From Lachnospiraceae bacterium (GTDB lineage Bacteria; Bacillota; Clostridia; Lachnospirales; Lachnospiraceae), in NCBI GenBank assembly GCA_011958945.1, contig BLLT01000004.1:1-47415 (forward strand): a stretch of DNA of 47,415 nt. Direction: 5' to 3'. A model generated the notes under the pieces. That model had not been told where the DNA came from and did not search any database. It saw only the letters and a list, made by a program, of their open reading frames with translations. The translations under genes and the position numbers were made by a program. This document shows positions 5,433 to 32,977 of this stretch, one piece after another; the first letter of the stretch is position 1; each line of letters starts with the position of its first letter.

Positions 5433-5621
5433 TCTGTCTTTCAGGGAAAAAATCTATACGTCTGGAATTGCGATTTCCTATATGCCAACAAACCGTGCAT
5501 AATAAATGGGGTATTGTAGCAACACCATAGTACCAATCCCTCAAACATAAAGCAGCAAAGGACGCAGGGACCAATGTTTCAGATCACAGTCTGGTTATAA
5601 TAAAATAAAAAGAAATGGAGG

Positions 5622-6299
5622 TTGATGATGAAGACAATCGCAATCATCGACGATGATGTTCATATTGGGAATGTATTGACAAAAATCTTAGAGAACGAAG
5701 GATATGGTGTTATGCGTGCCTATTCCGGTACAGAAGCACTCTATCTTCTTTCCCAAAAGAAGCCCGATCTGATTCTTCTGGATCTTATGCTTCCCGGACT
5801 TTCGGGAGAGGAAGTGTTGTCTCATGTTAAAAACATACCTGTCATCGTCCTTAGTGCAAAGGTGGATGTTCAGGATAAGGTAAATCTTTTGCTTGGAGGT
5901 GCGGTTGACTATATGACCAAACCGTTTGATCCGGATGAACTTCTTGCCCGCATTATAGTAGGACTTCGCAAAACGGAAATTGCAGATGATTCCACCGTAC
6001 TCGTAGCAGATGACTTAACACTGGATGTTTCATTGCAGGAGGTTACAGCAGGGAACCGACTGGTCAAACTGACACGGACAGAATTTGCTATCCTGAAATT
6101 ATTGATGATGAATCCGAAACGTGCCATATCAAAAAGTGTTCTGTTGGATCGCATCAGCATTGACACTCCAGATTGTACGGAACGGTCATTAAAACAGCAC
6201 ATCAGTAATCTACGGAGAAAATTGCAGGAGGCGACAGGCGGGGATTATATTGAGACTGTATGGGGTATCGGATTCAAACTGGCAGAGAAGAAATCTTGA
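5622..6299 (+). CDS. OmpR/PhoB-family response regulator
   Basis: IAIIDDDVHIGNVLTKIL...LILLDLMLPGLSGEEVL...PVIVLSAK; winged-helix C-terminus RSLKQHISNLRRKL...ETVWGIGFKL. Confidence 0.93.
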   Translation: MMMKTIAIIDDDVHIGNVLTKILENEGYGVMRAYSGTEALYLLSQKKPDLILLDLMLPGLSGEEVLSHVKNIPVIVLSAKVDVQDKVNLLLGGAVDYMTKPFDPDELLARIIVGLRKTEIADDSTVLVADDLTLDVSLQEVTAGNRLVKLTRTEFAILKLLMMNPKRAISKSVLLDRISIDTPDCTERSLKQHISNLRRKLQEATGGDYIETVWGIGFKLAEKKS

Positions 6300-6357
6300 C
6301 CAGATCCTGACGCTTTTCTGACCGCTTTCTTGACTTCCGTATGATATTCTTTAGATG
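6297..6357 (+). promoter_or_regulatory. Putative response-regulator-controlled promoter of the ABC operon
   Basis: Four TGAC direct repeats at 6297, 6308, 6319 and 6331 (11/11/12 bp steps); the last lies in a TTGACT -35-like box. Confidence 0.5.
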
Positions 6358-6388
6358 AAAGTAGGAGAAAAAATAGATATAAAGTGAT

Positions 6389-7072
6389 ATGGAGGGAAAG
6401 CGTAAAATGAATATTGTAGAAGCACAGGGTCTATGTAAATATTATGGTAAAGAAAATAATTTGGTCAAAGCGGTTGATGGCGTGGATTTTGGTATCAAGC
6501 GTGGAGAATTTGTTGCTATTGTTGGAATGAGTGGTAGTGGAAAATCTACGCTGCTGTATATGTTAGGGGGATTGGAGCAGCCTACCGATGGAGAAATTAT
6601 TTTGGATGGCGCCAAAATATATGAAATGGATAGCGAGGATATGGTTGCTTACAGAAGAAAAAATATTGGTTTCATCTTTCAAAGTTATAATCTTATTCCT
6701 GTTATCAATGTACTGGAAAATATCACTCTGCCAGTAGAGCTGGATGGTACAAAAGTGGATAAAGAGTATCTATCGGAAATCATAGACTTTCTGGGGATTC
6801 GTGACAAATTATATGAAATGCCCAATAATTTGTCAGGGGGACAACAGCAGCGAGTTGCTATAGCAAGGGCATTGATAGCAAAACCTCAGATTGTCCTTGC
6901 TGATGAACCGACGGGGAATTTGGATAGTAAGACGAGTGAGGATGTGATGGCACTTCTTAAAAAGACCAGTGAAAAATTTAACCAGACTATTATCCTGATT
7001 ACCCATAATAATGAAATCGCTGCATTGGCAGACCGTAGAATTACAATAAGAGATGGAAAAATAATAGCTTAA
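6389..7072 (+). CDS. ABC transporter ATP-binding protein (BceA/MacB-type)
   Basis: Walker A GMSGSGKST, Q-loop FIFQSYNL, signature NNLSGGQQQRVAIARAL, Walker B IVLADEPTGNLDS. Confidence 0.95.
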   Translation: MEGKRKMNIVEAQGLCKYYGKENNLVKAVDGVDFGIKRGEFVAIVGMSGSGKSTLLYMLGGLEQPTDGEIILDGAKIYEMDSEDMVAYRRKNIGFIFQSYNLIPVINVLENITLPVELDGTKVDKEYLSEIIDFLGIRDKLYEMPNNLSGGQQQRVAIARALIAKPQIVLADEPTGNLDSKTSEDVMALLKKTSEKFNQTIILITHNNEIAALADRRITIRDGKIIA

Positions 7073-7087
7073 GGGGGGGAATCTACG

Positions 7088-9598
7088 GTGAAAATAGAAA
7101 GAAAACTATCAAATAAAAAAATGACGGAAGGTAAAACCAGAAATGTGATATTGGTAATAGCGATTGCACTGACCACTGTTATGTTTACGGTGTTAATGAC
7201 GATATTCAGTAGCATTTCAGACTCACAGCAAAAAGAGGAAATGCGGCTGAATGGTTCGACATCATTTGCGACGATAAAGTATATTTCGGATGATGATTAT
7301 GAAATACTACAGCGGGCTTTTGGAAATGGAAATGTTGGATATCGTTTATTTATATCATCTCAAATAAATAATGAATCTTTATCAGGGCCGCCAATTGAAA
7401 TGTCTTATATGGATGAAAATTACATGTTAACACATTTCTGTACTCCTTCTGTGGGCACAGTGCCAATGAAAGAAAATGAAATTATATGTGACAGTAAAAC
7501 TTTAGAAGAAATGGGTGTGAAGGCGGAAATTGGAAACACGGTATCTTTGGAATTTATTATGAGAAACCAGTTATATATAATAGATTTTAAAATTGCAGGA
7601 ATTATACAGTCCGATGCATACAGTAGGCAAAGTATTATTGTTTCCAAGGCGTTTGTCGATAAATATGCTACTGAATTGGAGAATACGTACTTGGTTGACG
7701 GTGAATATTCTGGAGTTCGGATGATGGATATTAAGATTGATAATAAAATATTTCCATTACGATATTTCACTGACAAGTTGAATGAATGTGGTTATACCAT
7801 GGAGAATCAGACAGGGAATTTTTTGGATGCAAGTATAAATCCGGCATATGAGACGCAGGTCTCCGTAGATATATCAACTATGATAGGCATAGCTTTAATT
7901 GTTTTTCTATTGATGTTCACGGGATATTTAGTCATCTATAACATATTCGAAATATCTATTACACAGGATATCCATTTTTGGGCACTGCTCAGAATGATAG
8001 GGACTGACAAAAAAACAATTATCAGGATTGTAAGGCATCAGGCCTCCATGCTGATGATATTAGGAATTCCGCTTGGTATTGTGATTGGAGGCGTATTGGG
8101 CAATATTTTGTTTCCGTATATCGCAAGGACAACAACAATAAATGAGGGGTATTATCAATATGGAATTAAAGTTTATGCGATATTGTTTACGGTAATCTTT
8201 GTTGCTATGACTGTATATTATAGTGCAAAAAAATCGGTCAGAACAGCTGTCTCAATCTCACCAGTAGCCGCATTGCGGTGTACGGATGGGGAAGTAACAA
8301 TCCACAAAAAGAAAAGAAAAGTAAAAAAAGGAAGTTTAGAAAAGCTTGCTGCAGCTAATGTTGGAAGAAACAAAAAAAGAATGATTTTAGTTATCGTTTC
8401 ATTAAGCATTAGCCTGATCCTTTTTAACTGTACGTTTATTCTGGCAAATGGGATAGACAGGGAGAAATATTTGCAGAGCAAGATGAAATCAGATTTTGTA
8501 ATAGGAAATAGTAATTATTTTAACGTAAATAAACATTTTCGGACAAATGATGATGCCTTGGACGAAGCTGTTATAAATGAAATTAACAGGCAGGAAGGCT
8601 TCTTACAGGGAGGGGCTATGTATGCCTGCACACCGATGGGAGAGTCATTGTTTGAGTATCCCGACTGGGAGCAGCACAGTGAGACTGATAAGGATGGCAA
8701 CCAATATATCAGAATCAGCACAGGTGCCAGGTACAAATCCAATAATGGTATGCTTAGCTGTCAGTTATATGGAGCAGATGATTATGTGCTGTCTAATTTT
8801 GAGATAACAGAGGGGACAACAGACATAGAAGAATTACTCCGTAAGATGGGTTCTGGAGAATATATTATTATGAGTGCTGCTGGGTCTTCAGAATTTGCTG
8901 TTGGAGATACAGTTACAATCGTATTGGATGGGCAGAAATATCAATATACACTTCTGGCGAAAATGAATCGGGGAAGAACAGAATATTGCCAATTTACTAC
9001 TAATGGATTTTGTTATTACTTAAGCAGTGATAAACTCCGAAAAATCAGTAATGCGACATTGATGAATTATTCTTTTGATGCAGCAGATATTGATCAGATG
9101 GGAAAATATATTGATAGCCAATGCTGCAATGAATGGCTAAGCATGTCTTATATATCTGCGAAGACATATTACACTTCCTTTGACAGCTTGAAATCAGAAT
9201 TCTGGATTGTTGGCACTTTTATGAGCGTAGTTATTGGGGTAATAGGGATTGTTAATTTTGTCAATGTTATTTTGACATCTATTATAAGCAGAAAAAAAGA
9301 AATAGCCACGATGCAGAGTATTGGGATGCAGGGAAAGCAGTTACGGAAAATGCTTTGCACAGAAGGTATTATTTTCTCTCTGTCAGCGTTATCAGGTTCA
9401 CTTGCCCTGGGTGTTGTTTTGATACCATTGGTTTCTAATGTGTTTGCAGGGATGGTCGAATACTATGCCGGATATATCACGATGACACCAATGATAGCGA
9501 TTTGGATAGTATATTTTATTGTTTCAATTATAGTTCCTGTTTATGGTAAGCAGATCATTTCCAAGGATTCGGTAATAGCACGAATCAGGCAGGAATAA
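7088..9598 (+). CDS. FtsX-like ABC transporter permease
   Basis: 836 aa; two FtsX-like repeats of TM segments with large extracellular loops, next to its ATPase. Confidence 0.9.
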   Translation: MKIERKLSNKKMTEGKTRNVILVIAIALTTVMFTVLMTIFSSISDSQQKEEMRLNGSTSFATIKYISDDDYEILQRAFGNGNVGYRLFISSQINNESLSGPPIEMSYMDENYMLTHFCTPSVGTVPMKENEIICDSKTLEEMGVKAEIGNTVSLEFIMRNQLYIIDFKIAGIIQSDAYSRQSIIVSKAFVDKYATELENTYLVDGEYSGVRMMDIKIDNKIFPLRYFTDKLNECGYTMENQTGNFLDASINPAYETQVSVDISTMIGIALIVFLLMFTGYLVIYNIFEISITQDIHFWALLRMIGTDKKTIIRIVRHQASMLMILGIPLGIVIGGVLGNILFPYIARTTTINEGYYQYGIKVYAILFTVIFVAMTVYYSAKKSVRTAVSISPVAALRCTDGEVTIHKKKRKVKKGSLEKLAAANVGRNKKRMILVIVSLSISLILFNCTFILANGIDREKYLQSKMKSDFVIGNSNYFNVNKHFRTNDDALDEAVINEINRQEGFLQGGAMYACTPMGESLFEYPDWEQHSETDKDGNQYIRISTGARYKSNNGMLSCQLYGADDYVLSNFEITEGTTDIEELLRKMGSGEYIIMSAAGSSEFAVGDTVTIVLDGQKYQYTLLAKMNRGRTEYCQFTTNGFCYYLSSDKLRKISNATLMNYSFDAADIDQMGKYIDSQCCNEWLSMSYISAKTYYTSFDSLKSEFWIVGTFMSVVIGVIGIVNFVNVILTSIISRKKEIATMQSIGMQGKQLRKMLCTEGIIFSLSALSGSLALGVVLIPLVSNVFAGMVEYYAGYITMTPMIAIWIVYFIVSIIVPVYGKQIISKDSVIARIRQE

Positions 9599-9646
9599 CA
9601 CTGGCAATATTTGAGCACTACATTTAATTTTAGGAGATAAAATATT

Positions 9647-10561
9647 ATGGATTATGTGCTGACAACAAACTGTCTGGACAAGAGATACAGGAATTTTCAG
9701 GCATTAAACGGGCTTACAATGCATATTCCCAAAGGAGCTATTTATGGATTTGTTGGGAAAAACGGTGCCGGTAAGACGACTCTGCTCCGCCTGGTCTGTG
9801 GATTACAGGAGCCTGCTTCTGGCAGTTTTACCTTGTATGGAATCCGTAACGATGAACGGGACATTGTGAAAGCAAGGCGCCGCATAGGGGCAGTGGTGGA
9901 GACTCCGTCAATTTATCCGGATATGACAGCTGGGGATAACTTGAAACAACAGTATTTGGTTCTTGGGTTGCCTTCCTTTGAAGGATTGCGGGATATCCTG
10001 AAACTGGTGGGGCTTGGAGAAACCGGTAAGAAAAAGGTGAAAAATTTTTCTTTGGGCATGCGCCAAAGGTTGGGAATTGCTATAGCGCTGGTGGGAGATC
10101 CGGATTTTCTGATATTGGATGAACCCGTTAATGGTCTTGATCCCCAGGGAATTGTAGAAGTGCGTGAATTGATCCTGAGACTGAACCGCGAGAGACAGAT
10201 TACGGTGTTAATCTCAAGCCATATCCTGGATGAACTTGCCAAAATTGCAACACATTATGGGTTTATCGATAGTGGCAGAATATTAAAAGAAGTGAGCAAG
10301 GCGGAGCTGGAGGCTGCGTGTCGCAAATGTATCCATGCAGAAGTAACGGATACGAAGGTTCTTGCCCATATATTGCATACTGCAAATGTTGACCATAAAA
10401 TTCTTTCTGCTACATCTGCGGAAATATATGCAAAAGTAAATATATCCAAACTTGCTGCAGAGCTGGCAAAGGAAAACTGCGAGATTTTTTCCATGCAGGA
10501 AAAGGATGAAGATCTGGAGAGTTATTTTTTTTCATTGGTAGGAGGTAGCAGTTATGAGTAG
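9647..10561 (+). CDS. ABC transporter ATP-binding protein (bacitracin/lantibiotic immunity type)
   Basis: Walker A GKNGAGKTTLLRLV, signature FSLGMRQRLGIAIAL, Walker B FLILDEPVNGLDPQG. Confidence 0.93.
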   Translation: MDYVLTTNCLDKRYRNFQALNGLTMHIPKGAIYGFVGKNGAGKTTLLRLVCGLQEPASGSFTLYGIRNDERDIVKARRRIGAVVETPSIYPDMTAGDNLKQQYLVLGLPSFEGLRDILKLVGLGETGKKKVKNFSLGMRQRLGIAIALVGDPDFLILDEPVNGLDPQGIVEVRELILRLNRERQITVLISSHILDELAKIATHYGFIDSGRILKEVSKAELEAACRKCIHAEVTDTKVLAHILHTANVDHKILSATSAEIYAKVNISKLAAELAKENCEIFSMQEKDEDLESYFFSLVGGSSYE

Positions 10562-11369
10562 AATATTTTTTGCTGAGTTTCGCAGGTTATTCCATTTCAG
10601 GCTCTACTATATTGAATGTGCGGCAGTCGTCCTGTTTTCGGTACTTTATTTTAAACCGCCGGTTATTGATAGTTTTTTGTTCTATATTATGATTGTAATA
10701 GGAGCATTCTCTGCCATTTGTGTTTCGCAATTTATTGGTATGGAATATTCTTGTGGAACAATCCGCAATAAGCTGGCTACAGGACATACCAGAATGGAGA
10801 TTTATATGGCTCAGCTTATTTTGCATATTTTCGCTGCTGTCATCTTGTTTCATTTATCTATTTCGACTATTGTAATTGCAGGGGCAATATTTAACTGGAC
10901 GTATTATTTTTCTGTTCAGACACTTTTGGCTTATTATCTTGCGTGTATGTGTACTATCATTTTCATCACTGCGATATCAGTGTTTGTGGCGATGCAAAGC
11001 AGTTCAAATCTGTCAAGTTTAGTGATTCTTCTTGTACTATATGTTGGACTAAATATGATGGGTACCAATGTTCACAGTGCTTTGCGGGAGCAGGAAATGC
11101 GCATGACGGATACGCCACAGATGGAAAACTCTCTGGATGAACACTATATGGATGCCAGAACCCGGATGGGCTTTGAATATCTGCTGCTTATCAATCCATA
11201 TGGACAGGCGGCTTATGAAAGTATGCCTGTATTTGAGAGTCACGGGGAATATTTACCAATGCAGATTCTGAAAAATCCATTCCCTAAAATATTTCTATTT
11301 TCTGCGGTGGAAAGTATAGGTATAACGGCTGCTGGAATTTTATCATTTAGGAAAAAGGCAATCAAGTAA
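10554..11369 (+). CDS. ABC-2-type permease (lantibiotic immunity type)
   Basis: Multi-TM ORF overlapping the ATPase gene; FFAEFRRLFHFRLYYIE N-terminus. Confidence 0.8.
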   Translation: MSRIFFAEFRRLFHFRLYYIECAAVVLFSVLYFKPPVIDSFLFYIMIVIGAFSAICVSQFIGMEYSCGTIRNKLATGHTRMEIYMAQLILHIFAAVILFHLSISTIVIAGAIFNWTYYFSVQTLLAYYLACMCTIIFITAISVFVAMQSSSNLSSLVILLVLYVGLNMMGTNVHSALREQEMRMTDTPQMENSLDEHYMDARTRMGFEYLLLINPYGQAAYESMPVFESHGEYLPMQILKNPFPKIFLFSAVESIGITAAGILSFRKKAIK

Positions 11370-11381
11370 AGGGATAAAAGA

Positions 11382-12254
11382 ATGGTCTATAGTCTTGTCG
11401 GTATATTAGTGGTCATCATAATAATGTTATCAATAAAAATATATCTCATGGAAAAATCTGTTAGAGAGATCATGGAAGCATTTGCAGACAGGCTTAAGAC
11501 CGATACAAATATCCTTATTGATATTTCCAGTCGTGATAAGAACATGCGGGAACTGGCTGACCGGATCAATACAGAGCTTCGCCTGCTTCGTAAAGAACGC
11601 CGCTGTTATCAGCAGGGAGATCAGGAACTGAAAGACTCCGTGACAAATATTTCGCATGACCTGCGTACTCCGCTGACAGCAATCTGTGGTTATCTTAATC
11701 TTTTGAAACATGAAGAAAAAAGCGCGGCCGTGGATGAGTATCTTGCACAGGTTCAGAACCGGGTAGATGTGATGATAAGCCTGACGGAAGAAATGTTTCG
11801 CTATAGTATAGCCGCATCTTCCTATGAGCTTAAGAGGGAGAGAATAAATGTTGTCAGTGTGTTGGGGGAGAGCCTGCTGTCCTTTTATGGGATGATGCAG
11901 GAAAAAGGTATTCAGCCAGTGATAGCCATGCCAGAGGAACCTGTCTGGCGAATGTTGGATGTAAGTGCATTAAACCGTATTTTTTCCAATATCATAAGCA
12001 ATGCTTTAAAACATTCAGACGGAGATTTGTTTGTTGATATGAAAGAAAATGGCACCATAACATTCTCCAATACGGCACAAACCTTAAATTCGGTGATTGT
12101 GGGCAGGCTGTTTGAACGTTTTTATACTGTAGGAACAAACTATTACTCCACAGGCTTAGGGCTTTCTATTGCAAAGTTACTGACAGGGCGAATGGGCGGA
12201 CAGATAAGCGCTGAGTACAAAGGGGAAATGTTATACATTACAGTACAGTTTTAA
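11382..12254 (+). CDS. Sensor histidine kinase
   Basis: VTNISHDLRTPLTAICGYL H-box; IISNALKHS N-box; GLGLSIAKLL G-box. Confidence 0.92.
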   Translation: MVYSLVGILVVIIIMLSIKIYLMEKSVREIMEAFADRLKTDTNILIDISSRDKNMRELADRINTELRLLRKERRCYQQGDQELKDSVTNISHDLRTPLTAICGYLNLLKHEEKSAAVDEYLAQVQNRVDVMISLTEEMFRYSIAASSYELKRERINVVSVLGESLLSFYGMMQEKGIQPVIAMPEEPVWRMLDVSALNRIFSNIISNALKHSDGDLFVDMKENGTITFSNTAQTLNSVIVGRLFERFYTVGTNYYSTGLGLSIAKLLTGRMGGQISAEYKGEMLYITVQF

Positions 12255-12381
12255 ATAATAAGTGAAATATCTATCTAAAACGGGGCCTGTTTAGGAAAGA
12301 TATTAAAGTAATGCAAATATTGCTGTATTTATAGTAAAATAGGTTATTAAATCATAAATCGTCAAAAGGAGGCAGGAACCA

Positions 12382-13128
12382 ATGCTTCAGATAGCAGTCT
12401 GCGAGGACGAAAAGGCGGACAGGGATAATCTCACAGGCATCCTGAAACCGCTTTTAGACAAATACACAGAAGAATACCATATCAAAAACTTTACTTCCGG
12501 TGGGGAGCTGCTGCAATCGGGCGGCAGCTTCCACCTGATCTTCATGGATATCATGATGGAGGGCAGGAACGGGATAGAAACGGGGCAGGAGCTTTACAGC
12601 CGGAACCACTCCGCAAAGATCATATATACCACCAATTTCGGACAATACTGCATGGATGCGGTGAACACCGTACACGCCTTTGCCTTTCTGGAAAAGCCGG
12701 TATCGGCGGAAGCACTGGAGGAACAGCTGCAGGCATTCCTGCGGCAGTACCAAAAGGAGGAGGTGCGGCTGGAATTCAGGAATGTATCTTATGAGGAAAA
12801 TGGTGTCCAGTCGGAAAAACCTACCCTGTTGCTTCCTGCTGATACGATCCTGTACTTTGAATATATCAAGGCAAAAAAGAAGGTTAAAATCGTGACGGAA
12901 AATATGGTGTACGAGTACCCGGATGCCATCAGCGGACTGGAGGAGAGGATGCAGCCCTACGGCTTTGAGACGAGCTGCCGGGGCATCCTTGTAAACCTTA
13001 AAAATGTGGCAAAGACAAAGGGGTATGAGGTTGTATTAAAAAACGGCATGTCAGTGCCGCTGTCGCAGAAGCGGGTGGCGCAGTTCAAGGAACGGCTCAA
13101 TGAATACATCCATAACAGTGGGGAGTAG
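12382..13128 (+). CDS. LytTR-family response regulator
   Basis: LQIAVCEDEKADRDNL receiver; C-terminal LytTR domain ILYFEYIKAKKKVKIVTENMVYEYPDAISGLEERM...CRGILVNLKNV. Confidence 0.92.
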   Translation: MLQIAVCEDEKADRDNLTGILKPLLDKYTEEYHIKNFTSGGELLQSGGSFHLIFMDIMMEGRNGIETGQELYSRNHSAKIIYTTNFGQYCMDAVNTVHAFAFLEKPVSAEALEEQLQAFLRQYQKEEVRLEFRNVSYEENGVQSEKPTLLLPADTILYFEYIKAKKKVKIVTENMVYEYPDAISGLEERMQPYGFETSCRGILVNLKNVAKTKGYEVVLKNGMSVPLSQKRVAQFKERLNEYIHNSGE

Positions 13129-13132
13129 GGGC

Positions 13133-14425
13133 ATGGAAAATTTAGTATATCTGTTCAGTTGTTTTCTGTCATGTGTGATCGTTGCCGGACTGATGTTCCA
13201 GTTCATGGGTGACCGTTATGAGAAAGCCTTTGTAAATCCGTGGGTTTACCGGATTGCCGCCGCTGCCTCCGTAGTGATCGTGACACTGGTAAACCTGAAA
13301 CACAGTACATGGTGGAATATGGCAGCAAACTTTCTGGTGTTCGGCATTGCCAGCTTTATCTTCTATGAGGATAAAAGCGGCAGGAGATATTGGCGGGTGC
13401 TGGAGTTGGAATGCTTTTTTATGATGGTTGCGCTGTTTGAGGGGATTGGTGTATTTGGCATTGACCTATTGATGGATAAACTTTCACTTATGCCGGGAGA
13501 TATGGTAATCAGAAACAGTATAGAGGTGGCATTTTCCAAGCTGGTGCTGATCTTCTTTTACTATGCCCTGATGAGGCGGCTGTGGAAAAAGGATTACAGG
13601 CAGAGCCGGACGCAGGTGATCCTTTACCTTGTTATGTTTTTATACAGTATAGTCAATTTTATTATCCTTGCAACAGCTGTCACAAGGAAAGCGGACTATT
13701 TCCTGCTCTGTGCAAATTTATGTTGTATCGTCTTTGCCAACCTGTACCTGTTCTATTCCCTGAAGGTGGAGGATGATAAGAACAGCATGGAGTTCCAGAT
13801 CGCCATGATGAAGCAGCAGGAGGGTATGCAGTTTGAGCATTATGAGAGACAGCGGGAGAAATATGGAAAGTCCATTGAAGTCCTCCATGATGTCAGCAAG
13901 CATCTCCGCTCCATAGAAGAACTATATAAAGCAGGTATGACGGATAAGGCGATGGAGTACACAAGGCAGATCGGGGGCATCCTGAAGCCCCTTGTGCCGG
14001 AGGAATATTCCGACAATCCGATGCTGAACATCCTCCTTGCAGACAGGAAGCAGGAAGCGGAGAGCATCGGCATCCGGTTTGTGGTAAGGGTGGAAAGCAC
14101 AGGGCTTGGGTTCATAGAGCCGGTGGATGTGACAACGCTCTTTGGGAACCTTCTGGAAAACGCAATGCAGGCTGTCCTAAAATGCTGCGGGGAACGCTGT
14201 ATTAAGGTGCATATCAGAAACTATAATGAGATGCTTTCCATACGCATTGAGAACAGTGTGGAAAAGGAAGTAAGGATAAAGAACGGCAAACCGGTCAGCA
14301 CAGGCGGGAGGGGCACTGGAATCGGCTGCCTGAACGTAGAGCGGTGTGTGGAGAAATACGGGGGCAGCGTCCTCTATAAGAACGGTGACGGGAAATTTTA
14401 CAGTGATGTGATTCTGAACCGGTAG
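13133..14425 (+). CDS. GHKL-domain sensor kinase (AgrC-like architecture)
   Basis: Six-TM-like N-terminus; HDVSKHLRSIEELY; VTTLFGNLLENAMQAVLKC; GRGTGIGCLNVERCVEKYGG. Confidence 0.88.
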   Translation: MENLVYLFSCFLSCVIVAGLMFQFMGDRYEKAFVNPWVYRIAAAASVVIVTLVNLKHSTWWNMAANFLVFGIASFIFYEDKSGRRYWRVLELECFFMMVALFEGIGVFGIDLLMDKLSLMPGDMVIRNSIEVAFSKLVLIFFYYALMRRLWKKDYRQSRTQVILYLVMFLYSIVNFIILATAVTRKADYFLLCANLCCIVFANLYLFYSLKVEDDKNSMEFQIAMMKQQEGMQFEHYERQREKYGKSIEVLHDVSKHLRSIEELYKAGMTDKAMEYTRQIGGILKPLVPEEYSDNPMLNILLADRKQEAESIGIRFVVRVESTGLGFIEPVDVTTLFGNLLENAMQAVLKCCGERCIKVHIRNYNEMLSIRIENSVEKEVRIKNGKPVSTGGRGTGIGCLNVERCVEKYGGSVLYKNGDGKFYSDVILNR

Positions 14426-14495
14426 GCGGGATGGCGCAAACCATAAGGTTACTTTAGGATAATTTAGAGCAGATTTGGAGAAAAAACATAAAAAT

Positions 14496-14565
14496 CTGTA
14501 CTTCGGGGAAAAAATCTGTACCTCGGGATAAATGTATAGGATTTTACAGACAGATTACCGATAAG
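14496..14565 (+). promoter_or_regulatory. Tandem LytTR-type binding repeat and promoter, site A
   Basis: CTGTACTTCGGGGA (14496) and CTGTACCTCGGGAT (14516), exact 20-bp period; TTTTAC and GATAAG boxes downstream; matches site B at 31131. Confidence 0.6.
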
Positions 14566-14636
14566 AAAAGTGACAGTGCAGTATATGCGCAGAAGTGAAA
14601 ACGGATTTTAAGAACAGGATCAAGGAGGACAAAATC

Positions 14637-15422
14637 ATGGCAATGGAGATTACAAACAATTACAGCAGTTATGCAGCACAAACCATGACAGAAAGCGGTG
14701 CTACAAGCGGCACAAAAAAGAAAGGGACAGAAAAAACGCAGGAAACAGCAGGAAACAGCAAATCCAAGAGTACAGCAGAGTATGCAAACGAATTGGCGAA
14801 ACTTGCCCCAAGCGTAGAGTTTAAGGTTGGAAATGCCTGTTCATCAGCCCGAAACGGCAAGTCATTGACTGTTAATCCAAAACTTTTGGAAAAAATACAG
14901 AATGACCCCGAAAAAGAGAAGGATATGAAAGACATGATAAAAGGCGTTGAGTCTATGTCTAAATTGGCAGAAAGCATGGCAAAAGCCAGTGGCTGGACTA
15001 TAGTGTATCAGCACAGTTATATTGATGAAAACGGAAAATATCATTGCAGAATGCAAGGCAGAAACGATGGTATGTTAAAATTGAGTGATAAGCTCCGGGA
15101 AGAACGGAAGAAAAATTCTGAAAAGCTGATTGAAAAGACAAAAGAAAAGGCGGCAGAAAAGGAAGAAGAATTATCTGAAACTTTAGAAGAAAAGAAAGAA
15201 GTAAAAGAAGATGGCTCAGATGGAAAGATAGAAGAAAAATCAACTCCAAACAAAGCGGAACAGCTTCTAAATGAAAAATTGGCAGCTTCCAAAGACGGAA
15301 TAATATATCTGAATGATACAGATATTCGGACAATTATTGAAGCAGCCAAAGAAGATAATGCAGGCAGGGCAAATACAAAACAACAGGCGGGGGTCGGTGC
15401 AAATTTGGACTTAAAGGTTTAA
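14637..15422 (+). CDS. DUF6033-family-like protein
   Basis: MAMEITNNYSSYAAQTM...VEFKVGNACSSARNGKSLTVNPKLLEKIQ...; C-terminus ANLDLKV. Confidence 0.65.
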   Translation: MAMEITNNYSSYAAQTMTESGATSGTKKKGTEKTQETAGNSKSKSTAEYANELAKLAPSVEFKVGNACSSARNGKSLTVNPKLLEKIQNDPEKEKDMKDMIKGVESMSKLAESMAKASGWTIVYQHSYIDENGKYHCRMQGRNDGMLKLSDKLREERKKNSEKLIEKTKEKAAEKEEELSETLEEKKEVKEDGSDGKIEEKSTPNKAEQLLNEKLAASKDGIIYLNDTDIRTIIEAAKEDNAGRANTKQQAGVGANLDLKV

Positions 15423-15470
15423 CGGGAAAAGGACTTCCAATTTTAATTAAGGTCAAGGAGGAAATGGAAA

Positions 15471-16139
15471 ATGGAAATTAACAGTATCAATGGTATAAAT
15501 ACACAAATGCGGCAGATGGGAATGAACCAGGCAACGGATTCTTACAGCCGGAATCTTCAGAACCAGATTGCCGATGCACAGAAGCAGCTGCAGGAACTTT
15601 CTTCCAACAAGGATATGTCGCAGGAGGAAAAGATGGCGAAGCAGCAGGAATTACAGCAGCAGATTAGTGACCTGAATGTGCAGTTAAGGCAGCACCAAAT
15701 GGAGCAGCGCAGAGAGAAACAGCAGAAACAATCTTCCTTTGATGATATGATTGGCGGAAACCAGAAAACAGGCGTAGCAGATACAGGAGTGATTATTTCC
15801 CTTTCAACAACAAAAGAGCAGATTGCAGGCATGAAGAAAGTGCGGACAGACTTGCAGGGGAAACTGCGTACTGCCCAAACAGAGGAGGAAAAAGCAGACC
15901 TGCAGGAAAAGATTGATAACATTACCCAGAATATAGGCGATAAGGTAAAAGAAACACAAGATACCATATCAGACCATCAAAATGCTGAACAGGATAAAAC
16001 AGATAAGACACTGGATAAGAAAGAAGATGAAAAAGAGAGCGGGACGAATTCTGTCTCGGAAGAAGAAAATGGCAGTGTTGAGGTTAAGTCTGTTGAAAGT
16101 GCGAATACAGATGTTGAGGTGCAAAAAGAAAAGGAATGA
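15471..16139 (+). CDS. FlxA-like protein
   Basis: MEINSINGINTQMRQMGMNQATDSYSRNLQNQIADAQKQLQELSSNKDMSQEEKMAKQQELQQQISDLNVQLRQ. Confidence 0.7.
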   Translation: MEINSINGINTQMRQMGMNQATDSYSRNLQNQIADAQKQLQELSSNKDMSQEEKMAKQQELQQQISDLNVQLRQHQMEQRREKQQKQSSFDDMIGGNQKTGVADTGVIISLSTTKEQIAGMKKVRTDLQGKLRTAQTEEEKADLQEKIDNITQNIGDKVKETQDTISDHQNAEQDKTDKTLDKKEDEKESGTNSVSEEENGSVEVKSVESANTDVEVQKEKE

Positions 16140-16173
16140 CAAGAAACAGTTAACTATTACAGCACCCACTATC

Positions 16174-16446
16174 ATGCACTTTTATACAGATTTGCATCGG
16201 AAAACAAACAAAAGTGACCGTTTGAAAGCAGGATATACTTTATCGCGGTATGAAAAGGCATATACACAGGCGTTTATTGCAGCAGCGAAAGCGGCAGACC
16301 CTACTTGGACAGCGGGAAAGCCTATTAAAGCCGGTGCACTGGACGGCATCACAAGAGAAAGCGTAGAAAGTCAGCTTGCCAAAAGTGGTAACAAACTTGT
16401 GAAAAGGTCATCTGTTTCAGGAAGCTCATTAGATTTACAAGTATAA
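16174..16446 (+). CDS. C-terminal fragment-like ORF (DUF3879-like style)
   Basis: SRYEKAYTQAFIAAAKAADPTWTAGKPIKAGALDGITRESVESQLAKSGNKL...SLDLQV; looks like the C-terminal part of a longer protein. Confidence 0.45.
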   Translation: MHFYTDLHRKTNKSDRLKAGYTLSRYEKAYTQAFIAAAKAADPTWTAGKPIKAGALDGITRESVESQLAKSGNKLVKRSSVSGSSLDLQV

Positions 16447-16558
16447 AATATGTATTAGAGAGGGTGTACTGCGTTTCAAATGTGCGAATGAAGTACGCCC
16501 TTTCCAATATGTGAGGAATAATAGGAGTGTAAAGACTGTTTATGAGGGGGTAGGTTTC

Positions 16559-17221
16559 ATGGGCGTATCTGTAAGTGGCTCTGTCAGCGGCATAAAGGAT
16601 GTTACCATTGCAACAAGCAGAAAGGGAGAGCCGAACTGGTCTTATATCCCGTCAGCAGGGAAATCTAATAAATCGAAGGCGGAGTTTACCAGTGAAATCA
16701 AGGAACTGGCAAAAAAGGCAGCTCTGTCAACAAATAAAACAGAATCAGAATATATTTCCAGACAGGTTCTCCAGTTAAGGACGGAATATTTATCTGATGT
16801 TGCACCGGACAGGAAGATGTTGTATCAACAGGCTAAAAATGTTATGAAAAATCAGAATAATAACCCTAAATGTAGAGGGATTGGGGAATTGACATTATTG
16901 GATTTTTTGGAGGCTGCTGATGGCAGGGGAAGCAGTCTTGCTGAAAAAATGTTTGCATTGGCAGGTGGTGGCACGTTGACTTGCCCGATTTTAACAACGG
17001 GCGGTTATGGCGCTGTTATTGAATGCCAAGGTGTAAAAGCCCTGTCCAACACAGGCAATGGGTGGAGTTATGAAATGACACCGGCAGAACTTGCCAAAAA
17101 GAATGAATTTTATTCTATCTATTGGACAGAGTACCGTTCTGTTAAGAACAGTGCAGGGGCAGAACTTTCAGAACTGCCAGATTATCTGGAGGAGAAGCCC
17201 TCTTTTGATAGGAAAGCATAA
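16559..17221 (+). CDS. Uncharacterised protein
   Basis: MGVSVSGSVSGIKDVTIATSRKGEPNWSYIPSAGKSNKSKAEFTSEIKELAKKA...; ATG at 16559. Confidence 0.6.
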   Translation: MGVSVSGSVSGIKDVTIATSRKGEPNWSYIPSAGKSNKSKAEFTSEIKELAKKAALSTNKTESEYISRQVLQLRTEYLSDVAPDRKMLYQQAKNVMKNQNNNPKCRGIGELTLLDFLEAADGRGSSLAEKMFALAGGGTLTCPILTTGGYGAVIECQGVKALSNTGNGWSYEMTPAELAKKNEFYSIYWTEYRSVKNSAGAELSELPDYLEEKPSFDRKA

Positions 17222-30528: not shown

Positions 30529-31068
30529 ATGAGCAGAAATGAAAAAAGAAGAATGGGTATCTATGTGGTGACAGGGATTGCCCTGGTTGCGGTGGTGGCA
30601 GTCCTGTCGGTGGCTGTGCTTAAGAAAAGAGATTCTAAAAATGCCCAGGCCCAGGCAGCAAATCCGTCTTATATGGATGAAAACGGAGGGGAGTATATTG
30701 CTGCGTTCCTGAAAGACATGACAGATAGTACCATAACAGTAGACATAGCCGAGTTCATTACGGATGATAACACGGAGCGGATAAAGGAGCTGAAACTTTC
30801 GGAAGAGGACATGCCGGACGGCTATTATATATACAATCCGGATGAGGAAACTGTTACAGGGAAGCTGGACGGGCAGACCATATATACTTTTATTGATTGG
30901 AATGGCAATTTTACTGGTTCTGATTACCCGGAGGAGTACACCACAACGGATGCGGCGGAGTTTCAGAAGTATATTGGAACATATGAAGATTCGCAGCCAG
31001 GGATGCCGCTTTTCTTCCAGATAGAGGATGGAACAGTAAAGATTATTCTGGAGAAGCAGATTGCATAA
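30529..31068 (+). CDS. Membrane-anchored uncharacterised protein
   Basis: N-terminal TM IYVVTGIALVAVVAVLSVAVL; extracytoplasmic acidic domain. Confidence 0.6.
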   Translation: MSRNEKRRMGIYVVTGIALVAVVAVLSVAVLKKRDSKNAQAQAANPSYMDENGGEYIAAFLKDMTDSTITVDIAEFITDDNTERIKELKLSEEDMPDGYYIYNPDEETVTGKLDGQTIYTFIDWNGNFTGSDYPEEYTTTDAAEFQKYIGTYEDSQPGMPLFFQIEDGTVKIILEKQIA

Positions 31069-31130
31069 GGGCAGGATTGTCCCAGAAAGATATAGGCTTG
31101 CAGGTCTATAAACCGTAAGACAATTTATAC

Positions 31131-31198
31131 CTGTATTTCGGGGAGAAAATCTGTAAGTTGGGAAAAACCAGAGATTTTTACGGTTTTCCATATATAAT
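31131..31198 (+). promoter_or_regulatory. Tandem LytTR-type binding repeat and promoter, site B
   Basis: CTGTATTTCGGGGA (31131) and CTGTAAGTTGGGA (31151), 20-bp period, TTTTAC at 31176, TATAAT at 31193-31198. Confidence 0.6.
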
Positions 31199-31204
31199 AA
31201 AAAG

Positions 31205-31507
31205 GCAACATGTTGTTATGGCAATTTGGGGTATTGGACACAGAAATGCCCCATGAAAAGAAAGGGGAGTTTTACAGAAGGGCCGTACTATGGCCTGGTG
31301 AGAAGAAGTCACACAGGAGGAAGGAAGATATCTTCCTGTTTAGTTTAAGGGGAATCTGCCCCGGAAATGGGGTGCAAGCAAGTATCTGTATTTTCAGCTG
31401 AAACTTATATCATTACTTAAGAACAGGCATGGAAACAGCCTTCCCATGCGGCATTACAGAAAAAGCCAGCGGAACAGACATAAATCTGGACGGCTGGCTT
31501 TTTTGCT
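31205..31507 (+). ncRNA. Putative structured regulatory RNA
   Basis: Promoter-like TATAAT just upstream; hairpins TGGGGTATT/AATGCCCCA (31227-31253), AGGAAGATATCTTCCT (31322-31337), GCATGG/CCATGC (31427-31449); terminator AAAAAGCCAGC/GCTGGCTTTTTT (31460-31504); no convincing ORF. Confidence 0.45.
31460..31507 (+). terminator. Intrinsic terminator
   Basis: AAAAAGCCAGC ... GCTGGCTTTTTT. Confidence 0.7.
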
Positions 31508-31520
31508 TTTATCTGACATA

Positions 31521-31905
31521 CTACGTTTGTTCGTCACGGATACTTTCGGACTGTTCTTTTAGCACGGCATTCTGATCAGCACCTGTAAGTACAGCTGCAG
31601 CAGCCACGAGAGCGGACAGGCTCTTTTCGTCGCACAACGGGAGCAGCCGGCAGCGTCTGGTATGTAGAGCCGGTTCTGTCGGCTCCATCCTGGAAGATAC
31701 AGTCGTCCGCGGAAATGCCGAGCGTCCTGCAGATATGGTAAAACCCCTCAATGCTTGGGGAGCAGCGGCCACGTTCCAGGTCCTTCTGGAAGGACACGGA
31801 ATGGTCAAGCAGCTCCGCACACTCAGCCTGTGTGAGCTTCCGTTTTTGCCTTGCTTTTTTTAGGGCAGCGCTGAACACACGGGCATCACTGATTGATAAA
31901 GACAT
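31521..31905 (-). pseudogene. XRE-family regulator disrupted by a frameshift
   Basis: HTH in one frame (ALKKARQKRKLTQAECAELLDHSVSFQKDLERG...GSTYQTL); expected C-terminus RLLPLCDEKSLSALVAAAAVLTGADQ in the next frame; extra C at about 31647-31653. Confidence 0.65.
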
Positions 31906-32361
31906 GCGAATCACCTCCTAATAGTAGTGTATTGCCATACCTTGTAAAAGTAAAAATGGTATAAACACCCTAAAAGATAGCGTAATAAACTACTAAGCAC
32001 CCGGACATCTGGTGAACAAAAAAAACATGGTTCATCAGGGTTTTGTTTGGGTGCCTTTTTGCGGCCATGGGAGAGGTGCATGGTCCGCAGTGGGGAATGA
32101 TCGTAAGCCGGCCAGCGGCAGGGGAATTTCGTTAAAAAAATCATAAGCTTCCGTGGAGCGTCCTGTGCCCTGAATGGTAGTCTGGTACGCTACTTTTTAG
32201 AGGGAGGCATGAACTTATGGGAAAAGGGTGTCTATCCGTGCTGTCGGGCGGATAAATGCCCTTTCCCTTTTGCGTCCAGAGCCTGCATAAGCCATCCTGC
32301 AAGAGGGCCTCCGGTCCCACGGTTCACAGGGAAACGTGGAAAAAGACTGGAGGCGAAAAGG

Positions 32362-32805
32362 ATGAAAGAAAAACATAACGATTCCGTGCAGAACCGCTTC
32401 ACGGCATACCTGATGGCGGCTGTGGGGAACACGCGCAAGAAATACTGGGAGCGGAAATGCCGGCTGCAGGGCAGGGAGGCTGCCAGGGAGGATCTTCTGG
32501 AACGCAACTATACGGACTTTGAGGAGCAGTACCGCGCTTACATAGGGGAGCATACGGATTTTATCTTCCGGGACTGGCAGAGGTACGGCGAGCTGCTGGA
32601 CCTTCTGGAGAGCGACCGGCTGGCAAAGGCCATAAGCAGGCTGAAAGACAGGGACAGGGAGATTCTGTTCGCCAGGGTGTACGGGGAGCTTACCTTTGCG
32701 GAACTGGGAGAGCGGTTCAGGATGGAGCCGAAACAGGCGGAGATGGCATATTACTATGTGCTCAGGAAACTCAGGAAGGAGATGAATGGGAATGACAGAT
32801 TTTGA
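32362..32805 (+). CDS. Conjugative-transposon-type sigma factor-like protein
   Basis: AISRLKDRDREILFARVYGELTFAELGERFRMEPKQAEMAYYYVLRKLRKEM. Confidence 0.75.
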   Translation: MKEKHNDSVQNRFTAYLMAAVGNTRKKYWERKCRLQGREAAREDLLERNYTDFEEQYRAYIGEHTDFIFRDWQRYGELLDLLESDRLAKAISRLKDRDREILFARVYGELTFAELGERFRMEPKQAEMAYYYVLRKLRKEMNGNDRF

Positions 32806-32977
32806 AAAGCTGCTGGAGCGTGCGAAGGCGGGGGATAAGGAGGCGCAGGAGGCAATCTTCCGGATGTACCGCCCGCTCCTTATCAAGAACGCCATGGAGC
32901 AGAATGTATTCGAGGAGGACCTGTACCAGGAATTCTCGGCAACCCTGTTAAGCTGCATCCGGACGTTCAGGATTTAG
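32786..32977 (+). CDS. Short ICE/Tn-type helix-turn-helix protein
   Basis: MTDFEKLLERAKAGDKEAQEAIFRMYRPLLIKNAMEQNVFEEDLYQEFSATLLSCIRTFRI; overlaps the sigma-like gene. Confidence 0.7.
   Translation: MGMTDFEKLLERAKAGDKEAQEAIFRMYRPLLIKNAMEQNVFEEDLYQEFSATLLSCIRTFRI

Follow-up and report, generated by a model that had tools for sequence, protein, structure and literature searches.

What occupies the space between the last cargo gene of a mobile element and the regulatory gene that faces it? The window, i.e. the whole stretch of 47,415 nucleotides analysed here (contig BLLT01000004.1), belongs to a 5.07-Mb draft genome of a Lachnospiraceae bacterium, and its contig bears a mobile element that occurs in gut Lachnospiraceae. 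In order and domains, the regulatory genes on the right-hand side of the element are similar to those of Tn916. Judging from sequence comparison, we give a probability of about 0.6 to the reading that positions 31130-31508 are a LytTR-activated gene for a structured noncoding RNA of roughly 300 nt, likely a regulatory output. The sequence-only reading from which we started had delimited the unit as 31131-31507; the unit is real and is best drawn as 31130-31508. Its neighbours are as follows.

30529-31068: last cargo gene before the RNA unit
31521-31914, minus strand: convergent HTH repressor-like gene in the position of Tn916 orf9, C-terminal part frameshifted here
32359-32805, plus strand: sigma-like gene (sigma70_r4, orf7-like), assigned by domains
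32786-32977, plus strand: HTH_16 gene (orf8-like), assigned by domains

The unit is placed between the cargo genes and the convergent HTH gene, and a small serine recombinase comes after the HTH_16 gene. Between the HTH and sigma-like genes (31996-32060) lies an extended inverted repeat, nested and bearing a T run (GCACCC...GGGTGCCTTTTT), which is also found in locus L005 and resembles a conserved terminator or attenuator. A search of plasmid and viral collections gave no match.

Which signals would drive transcription of the unit? The relevant features, together with the partners that we propose for them, are these.

31130-31158, plus strand: LytTR-type direct repeats CCTGTATTT / TCTGTAAGT, detected by PWM and pattern search
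31193-31198, plus strand: -10 box TATAAT; distance to where the first repeat core begins, 62 bp
12382-13128, plus strand: LytTR response regulator, presumed activator (Pfam LytTR 5.5e-14, Response_reg 4.8e-12)
13100-14425, plus strand: GHKL sensor kinase (HATPase_c_5, Pfam 3.3e-19)
14495-14520, plus strand: second LytTR site, upstream of a DUF6033-like/FlxA operon
5433-5458, plus strand: third LytTR site, upstream of an operon for an OmpR-type regulator and ABC transporter

Repeat 1 (CCTGTATTT) occupies 31130-31138 and repeat 2 (TCTGTAAGT) 31150-31158; each is 9 bp long, with an 11-bp spacer and a 20-bp period. The TATAAT previously spotted at 31193 is indeed there, no -35 consensus was found at 17 bp from it, and about 11 bp separate the second repeat from the -35 position. 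LytTR promoters have been described as 9-bp direct repeats with an 11-13-bp spacer that precede the -35 position by about 10 bp (PMC6193735), and the repeat length, spacing and -35 distance of the unit fit this description. The same layout recurs in 30 sites of related elements, 26 of which have a -10 box at offset 60-67, compared with 7% of random positions. The repeat pattern gives three real matches versus none expected in shuffled windows. HdrR/BrsR of Streptococcus mutans (LytTR Regulatory Systems) share the repeat layout with the sites of the element, and in some relatives sites also lie upstream of the regulator's own gene, a further likeness. They differ in having a membrane inhibitor partner and bacteriocin genes, whereas the element has a kinase partner and one predicted RNA output.

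With up to three mismatches allowed, the repeat pair occurs at three sites in the 5.07-Mb genome, all of them on the window's contig and on one strand; a reversed-pattern control gave no site in the genome. In a search of 22 genomes, almost all of which have the element backbone, a regulator at least 90% identical is as a rule accompanied by at least two sites, mostly clustered within one element; G455, where the contig is truncated, has such a regulator and one site. All five genomes with a promoter-bearing unit possess a regulator at least 90% identical. A few genomes without the regulator also have weak or single sites, namely G460 and G461, and G462 with three. When two mismatches are allowed, a site is present in only two genomes, G449 included, out of 345 relatives of G449. 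Because of this site specificity, the co-occurrence with the LytTR regulator and the fixed -10 spacing, LytTR control of the RNA unit, already suspected in the sequence-only reading, appears well supported. Binding by this particular regulator is suggested by proximity and by the habit of its family, and, most likely, an active LytTR system would switch on production of the RNA.

With the HTH protein as query, we collected 35 loci with the same backbone from many species, mostly Lachnospiraceae (some loci bear two labels: L098 = L011, L097 = L016, L099 = L018, L101 = L038, L017 = L096). Homologous units in other Lachnospiraceae elements always lie between variable cargo and the same convergent HTH gene. 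In L098, L097, L099 and L101, homology sets in at the first LytTR repeat, give or take a few bases, and reaches to the terminator; since it begins at the repeats and ends at the terminator, promoter and RNA behave as one cassette at the cargo boundary. Elsewhere the cassette is incomplete. L008 and L009 retain the RNA body, with other cargo fused at 31203 in place of the promoter; L017/L096 retains promoter and 3´ end, its middle being replaced and weakly folded (z -2.05); other elements retain the 3´ part only, and the 3´ third is also present in elements without the LytTR system. These arrangements indicate that in some lineages recombination has eaten into the promoter-RNA cassette. A covariance-model and DNA search of about 640 relatives revealed no new copies except a partial second one in G451.

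Two observations on the same loci may be added. A short 3´ module (AAGGGGAA...TTAGCTGAAACTTA...terminator) precedes the HTH gene, behind unrelated cargo, in many elements (L015, L017, L019, L022, L023, L033, L036, L042). The HTH gene itself has, relative to L008/L098, a 2-base deletion at 31649 in the window, which shifts the frame after about residue 86, so that this copy may encode a changed repressor-like protein.

Does the unit encode a protein? One reading frame comes into question.

31210-31401, plus strand: 63-codon ORF, judged non-coding from stops in relatives

A small protein of 63 codons, or of 90 codons in G001, would account for the open frames in the window and in L008/L009. Nevertheless, the frame stops at codon 4 in L098, which is 96% identical, at codon 12 in L097/L099 and at codon 5 in L101, early stops or frameshifts having destroyed it in the latter three. 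No ribosome-binding site was found for it, and substitutions are about equal at codon positions 2 and 3, without the bias towards position 3. Disrupted in close relatives and lacking a coding signature, the frame was rejected as a gene, and we consider the small-protein explanation hardly tenable. The ORF had been called weak from the start, and a normal coding sequence had been named as the finding that would speak against a regulatory RNA; the frame exists, is not conserved and shows no coding signature.

The transcript that would arise from the promoter is predicted to contain the following elements.

31205-31508, plus strand: predicted structured noncoding RNA of some 300 nt; its start is placed according to the -10 box
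31228-31252, plus strand: hairpin H1 (GGGGTATT / AATGCCCC), two pairs changed on both sides
31272-31390, plus strand: long-range helix P0 (TTACAGA / TCTGTA), closing a multi-branched domain
31281-31295, plus strand: hairpin H2 (GGCCGT ACT ATGGCC), compensatory C-G to U-A and U-A to C-G
31322-31337, plus strand: hairpin H3 (AGGAAG ATAT CTTCCT), compensatory A-U to G-C
31342-31357, plus strand: hairpin H4a, with invariant AAGGGG loop
31358-31373, plus strand: hairpin H4b (GCCCCG GAAA TGGGGT), compensatory C-G to U-A
31427-31449, plus strand: hairpin H6 (GCATGG ... CCATGC)
31460-31504, plus strand: intrinsic terminator (AAAAAGCCAGC...GGCTGGCTTTTTT), bidirectional, shared with the convergent HTH gene

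Positions 31205-31507 fold with -99.2 kcal/mol, compared with -78.6 ± 5.2 for shuffled sequences (z -4.0; none of 100 shuffles as good), and homologous RNAs beat their shuffles too (L097 z -2.8, L101 z -5.4). Both the strong hairpins over about 300 nt and the intrinsic terminator, recognized earlier by inspection, are confirmed, the latter as a terminator on both strands. A simple terminator scan missed this hairpin, probably because its loop is long.

The fold is also conserved. For seven aligned copies, the consensus fold reaches -70.6 kcal/mol (Alifold), whereas alignments with shuffled columns reach -32.6 ± 4.5 (z -8.4), and SCI equals 0.72 versus 0.44 ± 0.05, the best of 200 shuffles scoring 0.57. 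With the terminator removed, consensus-fold z still amounts to -5.7 to -6.2. In P0, H2, H3, H4a and H4b, 95% of cells are paired versus 34-50% with slid partners; six pairs are changed on both sides in these helices, and H1 adds two. Compared with L097 or L101, the window differs at 13-14 pairs, of which 11-12 can still form; 40 of 42 pairs are kept where neutral simulation predicts 29-30 (P <= 0.0003, an optimistic value because the helices had been picked from these very sequences). The shuffle tests are the safer evidence, since each shuffle was refolded, unlike in the pair-retention test. As there are only about three diverged lineages, covariation events are few and each compensatory change probably represents one event; the signal of covariation is genuine but of little depth. 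Covariation had been proposed as a check on the RNA, and the outcome, conserved pairing with compensatory changes above controls, favours a structured RNA.

Primary sequence has diverged by 0.29-0.33, compared with 0.16-0.39 at fourfold sites of neighbouring genes. Strong sequence constraint is therefore not seen, divergence being about as fast as at fourfold sites, and as pairing persists, it seems to be the fold rather than the letters that is kept. This neutral-like divergence, the recombinant copies that have lost a promoter or a middle part and the position at the cargo boundary would all suit an inert leader or relic, composed of a promoter, remains of a deleted cargo operon and a shared 3´ end, whose RNA has no function. 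Against it, far more pairing is kept than neutral change would leave, the fold surpasses shuffles even when the terminator is removed, and the promoter has been retained in several lineages. We regard such a relic as quite unlikely.

Mobile elements offer yet another use for inverted repeats, of which the unit has many: the folds might work as single-stranded DNA in element transfer, as a single-strand origin, oriT or similar. They are, however, flanked by a promoter and a terminator. Furthermore, entire lineages have G-U at several of the variable pairs, and G-U there suits RNA better than folded DNA. A role as DNA thus seems very improbable to us.

The main rival of the regulatory-RNA reading is a switch acting in cis, as in Tn916. 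In the model of that element, transcription towards orf9 yields antisense RNA and transfer genes are released, a scheme proposed for transcription of tet(M) (PMC7288454). By analogy, read-through past a regulated terminator would here produce RNA antisense to the HTH gene and feed the orf7- and orf8-like genes, the RNA serving as attenuator. The regulation region of Tn916 (orf9, orf7, orf8, tet(M) leader) shares with our element the accessory genes, the convergent HTH gene, the sigma-like gene and HTH_16, as well as a promoter aimed at the HTH gene with a terminator between them (PMC7288454). By domain and order, the Tn916-type succession of an orf9-type HTH (minus strand), orf7 sigma with sigma70_r4 (plus) and orf8 HTH_16 (plus) is found after the cargo, the unit adjoins the HTH gene in every copy, and a second terminator-like hairpin (31996-32060) precedes the orf7-like gene. 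Nevertheless, the terminator of the unit appears to be strong and independent of conditions on either strand, antiterminator pairing was not seen by eye, and relatives retain the junction and the HTH gene without the LytTR promoter. The element further differs from Tn916 in having neither tet(M) nor the leader-peptide attenuator, in LytTR control and in the small serine recombinase that follows. On balance we hold the cis-acting switch to be unlikely. Two other candidates were discarded: a remnant of a tet leader, with no plasmid match, and a CsrA-type sponge, since the GGA motifs of the RNA, when the alignment was inspected, proved not to be conserved in the loops.

We return to the reading of the unit as a regulatory RNA gene. 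LytTR regulators are common, and RNAIII is the textbook case in which such a regulator has a long structured RNA as a main output. In agr of Staphylococcus aureus, RNAIII, of about 514 nt compared with roughly 300 nt here, is the long structured RNA among the outputs of AgrC/AgrA. In both systems a LytTR regulator is paired with a kinase of the HATPase_c_5 type, a promoter with direct repeats has no good -35, and the outputs include a long structured RNA, a predicted one in the element. The element differs in having no agrB/agrD system, in its repeats and in its mobile location, and its RNA has neither sequence similarity to RNAIII nor a conserved peptide. Only one match to the AgrB family (PF04647) was found in the whole genome, a broken one on another contig. 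Rfam gave no hit in the window at the gathering threshold and nothing relevant, RNAIII included, at a permissive E-value. Antisense targets near start codons were searched in four elements; the best hits differ and none is shared. Of the agr/RNAIII parallel drawn in the sequence-only reading, the logic of the circuit stands; agrBD and similarity are absent, and the search in four elements gave no conserved antisense target. The RNA may therefore be said to work like RNAIII in the logic of its circuit, not to be RNAIII, and it appears to belong to a previously undescribed family.

The following course of events is conceivable. The sensor kinase/LytTR pair (12382-14425) would sense a signal, whereupon the phosphorylated regulator would bind the repeats at 31130-31158 and recruit polymerase to a promoter without a -35 box. 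The transcript would fold into a multi-branched domain (P0, H2, H3, H4a, H4b) with flanking hairpins and end at the terminator, and the folded RNA would most likely act in trans on an mRNA or on a protein. The conserved site, the promoter spacing, the conserved fold and the lack of a conserved ORF are results of the computations, and we infer transcription, the binding regulator and the start point of the RNA. Somewhat doubtful, and offered tentatively, is the wider proposal that the new RNA family is the dedicated regulatory output of the element's own kinase/LytTR system, linking an external signal to cargo or transfer control, and that an RNAIII-type circuit has evolved independently on a conjugative-type element. 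If true, this would be a second, unrelated example of the RNAIII type, on a mobile element of gut commensals, meaning that the circuit arises repeatedly; it would also add a new RNA family to test and be relevant to the question of how these elements perceive their environment.

Finally, the putative LytTR regulon (5433-17221) includes the DUF6033-like/FlxA cluster, an operon located directly behind the LytTR/GHKL pair, whose first gene varies among elements behind a conserved promoter. G001 and G448 hold, near the intact regulator gene, a second, truncated copy with a stop codon (L063, L064). The untranslated leader of the DUF6033-like operon (14547-14634) is strongly conserved across elements (GAAAACGGATTTTAAGAACAGGATCAAGGAGG), and TTAAGAACAGG is common to this leader and to the RNA near 31418.
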